Assembly (NCBI GenBank): GCA_027491295.1
Contig: JAIXWK010000002.1
Span: 494,032 to 558,031, forward strand
Origin: Microbacteriaceae bacterium
GTDB taxonomy: Bacteria > Actinomycetota > Actinomycetes > Actinomycetales > Microbacteriaceae
Direction: 5' to 3'
Length of the DNA stretch: 64,000 bases
The notes beneath the pieces were generated by a model that saw only the letters and a program-made list of their open reading frames with translations, was not told where the DNA came from and ran no database searches. Shown here piece after piece: positions 38,683-41,711 of this stretch. Both the position numbers and the translations under genes were made by a program. Positions within the stretch are counted from its first letter, which is position 1. The number at the start of each line of letters is the position of its first letter.

Positions 38683-39993
38683 CTAACCTATCCGCTGTTT
38701 TTTGCCGAGCAAACCTTGAGGTCTGAACAGCAAGATTCCGATGAGAACTACCAGTGCACCGACGTACTTGAGGTCGGCAGGGATAAACAGCGAGCTGGTT
38801 TCAACCAGGATGCCAACCACTAGCGAACCGATTAGCGCTCCGAATGCAGTGCCCAATCCACCCAAGGTGACGGCTGCGAAAATCAATAGCAAAATCTGGG
38901 CACCCATGTCCCACTTGATTCCCGGGCGGAAGTAAGCCCAAAGCACACCGGCAAGACCTGCGAGTGCTCCAGAGATGATCCAAACTGTGCGAATCACCTT
39001 GTCGACGTCAATACCCGAGGCTGCAGCTAGATCTGGGTTGTCGGAGATAGCGCGGGTTGCCTTACCGGTCTTGGTCCTAAGTAGCCACCAAGCAAATCCC
39101 ATGATCACAACGATCGAGATAGCCATGGAAACCAAGTCGGTCATTGAAAGTGCAACTGAACCAAAGAGTGGGACCATGGTTGAGTCGGCACCAGGAAGCT
39201 GCTCGGTGCCACCGCCTACGAAGTACTGGAACAGGTAGCGAGCGGTCAGCGATAGACCAATGGACACAATCATCAGCTGAACCAGCGCAAGTCCGCGCTT
39301 TCTCAAAGGTTTCCAGAGCCCGGCGTCCAGCGCCCAACCCATAGCACCGGAGAGCAATACAGCGGCTGGGATAGCCACCCACATTGGAAGCTGCAGTCCC
39401 GCACCCAAAACCAACGCTGCAACCGCACCGAAGGTAACCATTTCAGAGTGTGCAAAGTTTGAAAGGCCGGTGGTGCCAAAGACCAGCGACAGACCAACCG
39501 CAGCTAGACCAAGCATTAGACCGAAGTTCAGACCGTAGATCAAACGCGCAACGACCTGGTCAAACATAGATACGGTGACTCGAGTTCCCTCACCGATAAA
39601 GAAGTTTGCAACCAGCGGACTGGTCTTTCCAAGGACAACTTCCTTAGTTGCGCCACCCTCACCGGTAACTGCGATGCCCTCGGGCAGAGTCTCCTGGTCC
39701 AAGGTGACCTTGTATGTGTCGCCTTCGACACCTGGAACACCGATGTACCACTTGCCATCAGCTCCGGTAACGGTTTCGGCGGTGTAGCCACCACCGTCAA
39801 CGCTCATGCGGACGCCACCAAGTGGCTCACCATCAAGCTTTACGTTTCCGGTAATTCCGCGCTCTAAATCTTCACCGACGCTGTCGGCGCTCGCAGGGGT
39901 TGCACCTAGGCCAAAACCGAGAACCGTAGCGATCAGAAGCAGTAAAAGGGATGAGAGCAATCGCTTGGGATTGCTGGCAGAGAGGAATTGCAC
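38683..39993 (-). CDS. livH: LivH-type permease with signal peptide and extracellular beta domain
   Basis: Permease of the importer, 436 aa instead of about 300. A signal peptide (hydrophobic ~13-30, cleavage near ASA at ~36) leads into a ~90-residue extracellular segment resembling carboxypeptidase-regulatory/transthyretin-like beta domains (NVKLDGEPLGGVRMSVDGGG, TGADGKWYIGVPG). The LivH core begins near residue 145: ARLIYGLNFGLMLGLAAVGLSLVFGTTGLSNFAHSE, later TKTGKATRAISDNPDLAAASGID. GTG start with GGAGGA upstream. The added domain could help dock the binding lipoprotein (inference). First gene of the operon. Confidence 0.93.
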   Translation of the reverse strand: MQFLSASNPKRLLSSLLLLLIATVLGFGLGATPASADSVGEDLERGITGNVKLDGEPLGGVRMSVDGGGYTAETVTGADGKWYIGVPGVEGDTYKVTLDQETLPEGIAVTGEGGATKEVVLGKTSPLVANFFIGEGTRVTVSMFDQVVARLIYGLNFGLMLGLAAVGLSLVFGTTGLSNFAHSEMVTFGAVAALVLGAGLQLPMWVAIPAAVLLSGAMGWALDAGLWKPLRKRGLALVQLMIVSIGLSLTARYLFQYFVGGGTEQLPGADSTMVPLFGSVALSMTDLVSMAISIVVIMGFAWWLLRTKTGKATRAISDNPDLAAASGIDVDKVIRTVWIISGALAGLAGVLWAYFRPGIKWDMGAQILLLIFAAVTLGGLGTAFGALIGSLVVGILVETSSLFIPADLKYVGALVVLIGILLFRPQGLLGKKQRIG

Positions 39994-40016
39994 CTGTCCT
40001 CCAAATCGTCATGAGC

Positions 40017-40066
40017 TACTTTGCTCAGAAGCCCCGTTGGGAACTCTCAAAAACATTAGCAAAGTA
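40017..40066 (-). promoter_or_regulatory. structured leader RNA candidate upstream of livH
   Basis: Outer 9-bp perfect pairing UACUUUGCU / AGCAAAGUA encloses an inner stem (40027-40035 with 40039-40047, loop AAC) that includes two G-U pairs valid only in the minus-strand RNA. It lies about 25 nt before the livH GTG and close to its ribosome-binding site. No known riboswitch class is recognised. Confidence 0.5.
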
Positions 40067-40093
40067 AACCTAGTGGCATTCGGCTCAGGCCAT

Positions 40094-40117
40094 AAATCTT
40101 TGGTTTCAGAAAGATTT
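40094..40117. promoter_or_regulatory. inverted repeat between livH and guaB
   Basis: Perfect 8-bp inverted repeat AAATCTTT-N8-AAAGATTT in the 212-bp divergent region. A possible -10 TAGAAT for guaB lies downstream at 40164-40169. It may be an operator for either gene. Confidence 0.4.
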
Positions 40118-40172
40118 CAAGACCTGCGAAAATCCACCTTATTTATAGGGGTGATTGCTTGGCTAGAATTAG

Positions 40173-41711
<1,539 letters not shown>

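Follow-up and report, generated by a model that had tools for sequence, protein, structure and literature searches.

A conserved livH leader in Aquiluna and close relatives, with three small predicted hairpins of which the last covers the ribosome-binding site

This work concerns the 5′ end of livH in a 64,000-nucleotide stretch (referred to here as the window) of an Aquiluna-like Microbacteriaceae genome. According to the open reading frame list, livH (38683 to 39993, minus strand) begins with a GTG at 39993 and is the first gene of livHMGF; guaB lies divergent to it at 40206 on the plus strand. Orthologues of livH are present in 21/23 genomes of the genus and were also found on Rhodoluna-like contigs, and among these relatives the divergent guaB is retained next to livH wherever the contig extends far enough. 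A likely guaB promoter (TTTATA, 16 bp, TAGAAT) occupies 40142 to 40169 on the plus strand and no other promoter-like site was found for guaB; given its position, the predicted guaB transcript does not include the livH leader. In the portion of a metatranscriptome study drawn on here, livK and livGF transcripts from Luna-1 bacteria are recorded in an estuary, with livK highly transcribed (PMC12422013). As far as that portion goes, these transcripts show that the liv system is expressed, not how it is controlled.

The original prediction placed a structured RNA at 40017 to 40066 on the minus strand, and the inverted repeats on which it was based are present letter for letter. The arms of its outer helix, TACTTTGCT (40066 to 40058) and AGCAAAGTA (40025 to 40017), are complementary; its inner helix, GAGUUCC/GGGGCUU (40046 to 40040 with 40035 to 40029), contains the two U-G pairs claimed for it (40043/40032 and 40042/40033); and the element ends 24 nt ahead of the livH GTG, adjoining GGAGGA. 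Folding of these 50 nt gave −14.7 kcal/mol (z score, −1.99), a value equaled by 11/200 shuffles and only marginally better than chance. Because these statistics are marginal, one sequence alone cannot decide the matter.

We compared 25 leaders, consisting of those from 21 Aquiluna genomes and from 4 Rhodoluna-like loci, aligned in two ways (by anchors and by MAFFT). Common to the leaders are an extended −10 element, a short gap, a first hairpin (H1), a second hairpin (H2) with the loop RNNGNN, a linker (mostly GAYNT), GGAGG, and the start codon. Across the whole leader, folding energy was mildly below that of shuffles (mean z score, −1.5). From this comparison, the livH mRNA in Aquiluna and its close relatives is predicted to carry three small conserved hairpins at its 5′ end, the last of which (H3) covers the ribosome-binding site. 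A search of the literature library used here retrieved no description of this leader. As an observation, the original prediction survives in its inner helix, which is H1, and its interpretation survives insofar as the livH leader does contain a conserved, covarying structured RNA; the outer helix belongs to neither part and is discussed below.

The putative extended −10 promoter element of livH, TGCTAATGT (TGnTAnnnT; 40053 to 40061, minus strand), is conserved in 25/25 leaders and stands at a similar distance from the Shine-Dalgarno sequence in all of them. With the leaders anchored on this element, nothing else upstream of the hairpins was strongly conserved. A −35 was not conserved, and conservation further upstream was almost confined to a C located 3 nt ahead of the TG. 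Based on the spacing and on a conserved A/G, livH transcription is predicted to start approximately 7 bases after the −10, at about 40046 (40045 to 40047, minus strand), where a purine is enriched across lineages. Initiation from this promoter (40061 to 40053) would give a livH operon transcript with a leader of ∼53 nt ahead of the GUG. Just after the −10, three T residues (40050 to 40052, minus strand) are conserved in most lineages (76 to 88%).

The leader would fold into H1 at its very 5′ end, followed by H2 and H3. H1 (GAGUUCC/CAAC/GGGGCUU; 40029 to 40046, minus strand) is an inverted repeat in nearly all leaders, and its arms differ in sequence among them (e.g., ACUCU/AGAGU, AACCUUG/CAAGGUU, and GCGCGCC/GGUGCGC). 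Its mean z score over 13 lineages was −1.7, and it is weak in two of the leaders (L021 and L014). H2 (UGAGC/AAAGUA/GCUCA; 40012 to 40027, minus strand) has a six-base RNNGNN loop with an invariant G, and it displays compensatory changes, with both sides changed in 4/6 pairs across the 25 leaders. When H2 was scored together with H3, whose invariant pairs are thereby taken in, 26 double-change cells were observed versus 10.2 in shuffles, and the covariation score was 0.230 versus 0.106, a value reached by 0/500 shuffles in a test that, as the tool warns, kinship among leaders inflates. When the partner was slid along by 1 to 3 columns, the paired cells, again with the invariant H3 pairs counted, fell from 93% to between 49 and 58%. 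This slide control, as well as the occurrence of several pair types at single positions, argues against kinship as the source of the signal. Covariation among homologous livH leaders, which had been proposed as a check on the original prediction, is thus present, and it resides in H2.

The Shine-Dalgarno sequence GGAGGA (39997 to 40002, minus strand), of which GGAGG is invariant in 25/25 leaders, forms the 5′ arm of H3 (39981 to 40002, minus strand). In this hairpin, it would pair with UCCUCU of codons 3 to 5 and leave the GUG in a 10-nt loop. Among the 25 leaders, 96% of H3 cells are paired. The 6 bp of H3 alone amount to about −5.5 kcal/mol in Aquiluna, which is a moderate barrier, and are weaker in the Rhodoluna-like genes (−3.3 to −4.6 kcal/mol). 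H3 lacks covariation because the Shine-Dalgarno sequence is fixed; its support comes from codon choice and spacing.

We assign a probability of roughly 55% to the reading that this is a cis-acting leader in which H3 limits or sets the initiation of livH translation, while H1 and H2 are structural or stabilizing. Ribosomes would have to open H3 or wait for it, and H1 and H2 would probably shield the mRNA 5′ end and prevent competition from upstream sequence. Since the livH permease gene is first in the operon, such a leader could set the amount of membrane protein. Known Shine-Dalgarno-sequestering leaders include ribosome-binding-site hairpins and RNA thermometers of the zipper type. The livH leader resembles these in that the Shine-Dalgarno sequence is paired within a conserved hairpin and the start codon is placed in the loop. 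It differs in that the pairing partner lies inside the coding sequence, at codons 3 to 5, and in that we found no evidence of a response to temperature or ligand.

Constraint at codons 3 and 4 acts at the nucleotide level. Codon 4 is CTC in 21/21 Aquiluna livH genes, and it alone among 27 invariant leucine columns uses a single codon; CTC accounts for ∼20% of leucine codons, with the livH genes themselves as the reference. The third base of codon 3 is always C in the same genes. When each lineage was represented by one genome, codon 4 alone, of 45 columns with six-fold degeneracy, was uniform in its codon, and the signal peptide surrounding it is hypervariable. The Rhodoluna-like livH genes are one codon shorter in this region, and the C-rich CCUC shifts by 3 nt with the start; at one locus (L050), the leucine codon is replaced by a proline codon (CCC), with CCUC preserved in another frame.

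These observations bear directly on a passive leader, in which H1 and H2 would act merely as a 5′-end stabilizer and spacer of the Escherichia coli ompA type and UCCUC would have another reason, such as the signal peptide or codon effects. Stabilizers of that type carry a 5′-terminal hairpin and a second hairpin before the Shine-Dalgarno sequence. The livH leader has the same order, with a hairpin at the predicted 5′ end, a second hairpin, and then the Shine-Dalgarno sequence, but the last of these is itself paired. A passive role would suit the variable sequence of H1 and the simple hairpin form of H2; it does not account for the single leucine codon at codon 4, which the other 26 invariant leucine columns do not share, or for a CCUC motif that follows the start codon in the Rhodoluna-like genes. 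We therefore regard a passive leader as rather unlikely. For the favored reading of a leader acting through H3, an anti-Shine-Dalgarno element maintained within the coding sequence through codon choice makes a clear hypothesis that is cheap to test and also offers a way to search for other sites. In the genome from which the window comes, the GGAGG-start-TCCTC pattern occurs at a single site, at livH.

To describe the distribution of the leader, we used a covariance model (R1) built from H2 and H3. In 22/23 genomes of the genus, R1 had a single strong match (49 to 68 bits), which was at livH in every case, and the next-best match in those 22 genomes scored 19.6 bits. One genome outside the training set (G022) matched at 55 bits with all elements present. 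The exception was G020, a 77%-complete genome that yielded no livH at the threshold applied. No other strong copy was detected in the genomes of the genus, where the remaining R1 matches were weak (below 20 bits), and a scan of 400 family genomes added no strong match beyond two Rhodoluna-like loci that were already in the training set. Matches in G314 and G377 lie away from livH, look like chance, and were discarded; a family-wide scan for the pattern of H2 followed by GAYNT-GGAGG lacked the stringency to be of use. Little regulation would be expected in streamlined aquatic actinobacteria. Despite this expectation, the genus and its Rhodoluna-like relatives have retained the leader, at one gene only, that of a nutrient importer.

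Between H2 and H3 lies an unpaired linker, GAUUU (mostly GAYNT; 40003 to 40007, minus strand), that is conserved in A1 and A2, with its G and A at ≥90%. Its position beside the Shine-Dalgarno hairpin, the conserved unpaired R and G of the H2 loop, and the role of the operon in nutrient import would all be compatible with a ligand- or protein-controlled switch, i.e., a small riboswitch or RNA-binding protein site whose sensor consists of the RNNGNN loop, the GAYNT linker, and H3. The unpaired bases that are invariant are few, though, inspection of the leaders revealed no alternative pairing, and there is one site per genome. A pseudoknot between the H2 loop and the linker was considered and dropped, as its pairing was little above the control (2.38 versus 2.04, of 3). 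For control by CsrA in particular, PF02599 was detected in controls and not in this genome (98.8% complete). Rfam gave no gathering match in the window and no match at an E value of ≤5 in 39940 to 40215, in agreement with the earlier statement that the element fits no known riboswitch class. The accompanying suggestion that it senses an amino acid or purine state gained no support, with neither a conserved core resembling a ligand pocket nor an alternative switch pairing found. Overall, there is no evidence of a ligand or switch for the livH leader, and we consider such control quite unlikely. A shade less probable is that Luna-1 actinobacteria possess a new class of small regulatory RNA whose GAYNT linker and H2 loop would sense the cellular state and toggle H3; if this were true, codons 3 to 5 would serve as a built-in anti-Shine-Dalgarno sequence.

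Leader-peptide attenuation was also considered, and no terminator-like site was found. In Corynebacterium, ilvBNC is under the control of a conserved uORF, according to the portion of the report used here (PMC10272879). On that basis, ilvBNC and livH would both be branched-chain amino acid operons of Actinomycetota with cis-acting leaders. The livH leader is unlike that of ilvBNC in having no conserved leader peptide: a uORF from the ATG at 40012 was rejected, as this ATG is lost in close relatives.

H2 can also be viewed as DNA, namely, as a palindromic operator (GTGAGC-6-GCTCAC type) bound by a repressor ∼20 to 35 bp past the start site. Its six-base arms are two-fold symmetric and lie just downstream of the promoter, and palindromes likewise stay symmetric when both halves change. 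The loop, however, is asymmetric (R at position 1 and an invariant G at position 4, with no matching C at position 3), the arms vary among species, the genome holds no second copy, and H1 and H3 are conserved too; an operator is accordingly very unlikely. The RNA strand is the minus strand, since the leader is placed downstream of the livH promoter and ahead of the livH start, and outside the transcript from the likely guaB promoter. This position indicates the strand better than the G-U pairs invoked originally, an argument that is weak in relatives: on the minus strand, H2 shows 7 G-U versus 6 A-C cells, and its inner four pairs show 4 to 1.

An outer 9-bp helix enclosing H1, formed in a longer transcript, is the least probable reading and can be set aside as highly improbable: all 9/9 pairs form in the species of the window and in four of its close relatives, but there is no covariation in 12 other lineages, the 5′ arm falls inside the invariant −10 element, and the helix competes with the covarying H2. 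In the other lineages, 4 to 8 of 9 positions pair. With the closest clade left out, arms from the same species paired about as well as arms from different species (6.13 versus 5.76 of 9), and the helix is accordingly a coincidence confined to the clade of the window species. Part of it consists of two elements that are themselves conserved, namely, the TG of the putative −10 and the GC of H2. Owing to its overlap with the invariant extended −10, the 5′ arm is expected to fall ahead of the transcript, at approximately −20 to −12 relative to the predicted start. The 3′ arm would consume the loop of H2 together with its 5′ side, and H2 is the hairpin with the best support. Transcripts starting downstream of 40017 had been named as evidence against the original structure; the predicted start at 40046 comes close to this case in that it already lies past the outer 5′ arm.

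Beyond Aquiluna and the Rhodoluna-like relatives, four genomes in genus g70 had weak R1 matches (20 to 25 bits), all at livH and with an H2-like hairpin. At these loci (L229, L236, L237, and L233 in G397, G265, G093, and G162, respectively), the hairpin has an RNNGNN loop and is accompanied by (A/G)ACAT-GGAGGA before livH. The H2-like hairpin is missing in at least three g70 relatives, and the codon 3-to-5 element is absent from the g70 livH loci; we do not claim g70 as a carrier of the leader, and independent gain or loss of the hairpin is possible. In another Microbacteriaceae genus (L022), two tandem hairpins with GACC-TGGC-GGTC cores and an identical loop stand right before the livH Shine-Dalgarno sequence, and the livH leaders of two Microbacterium loci (L080 and L084) contain the inverted repeat AATGCCGA...TCGGCATT. 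Across the family, livH leaders look structured, with a sequence that differs from genus to genus.
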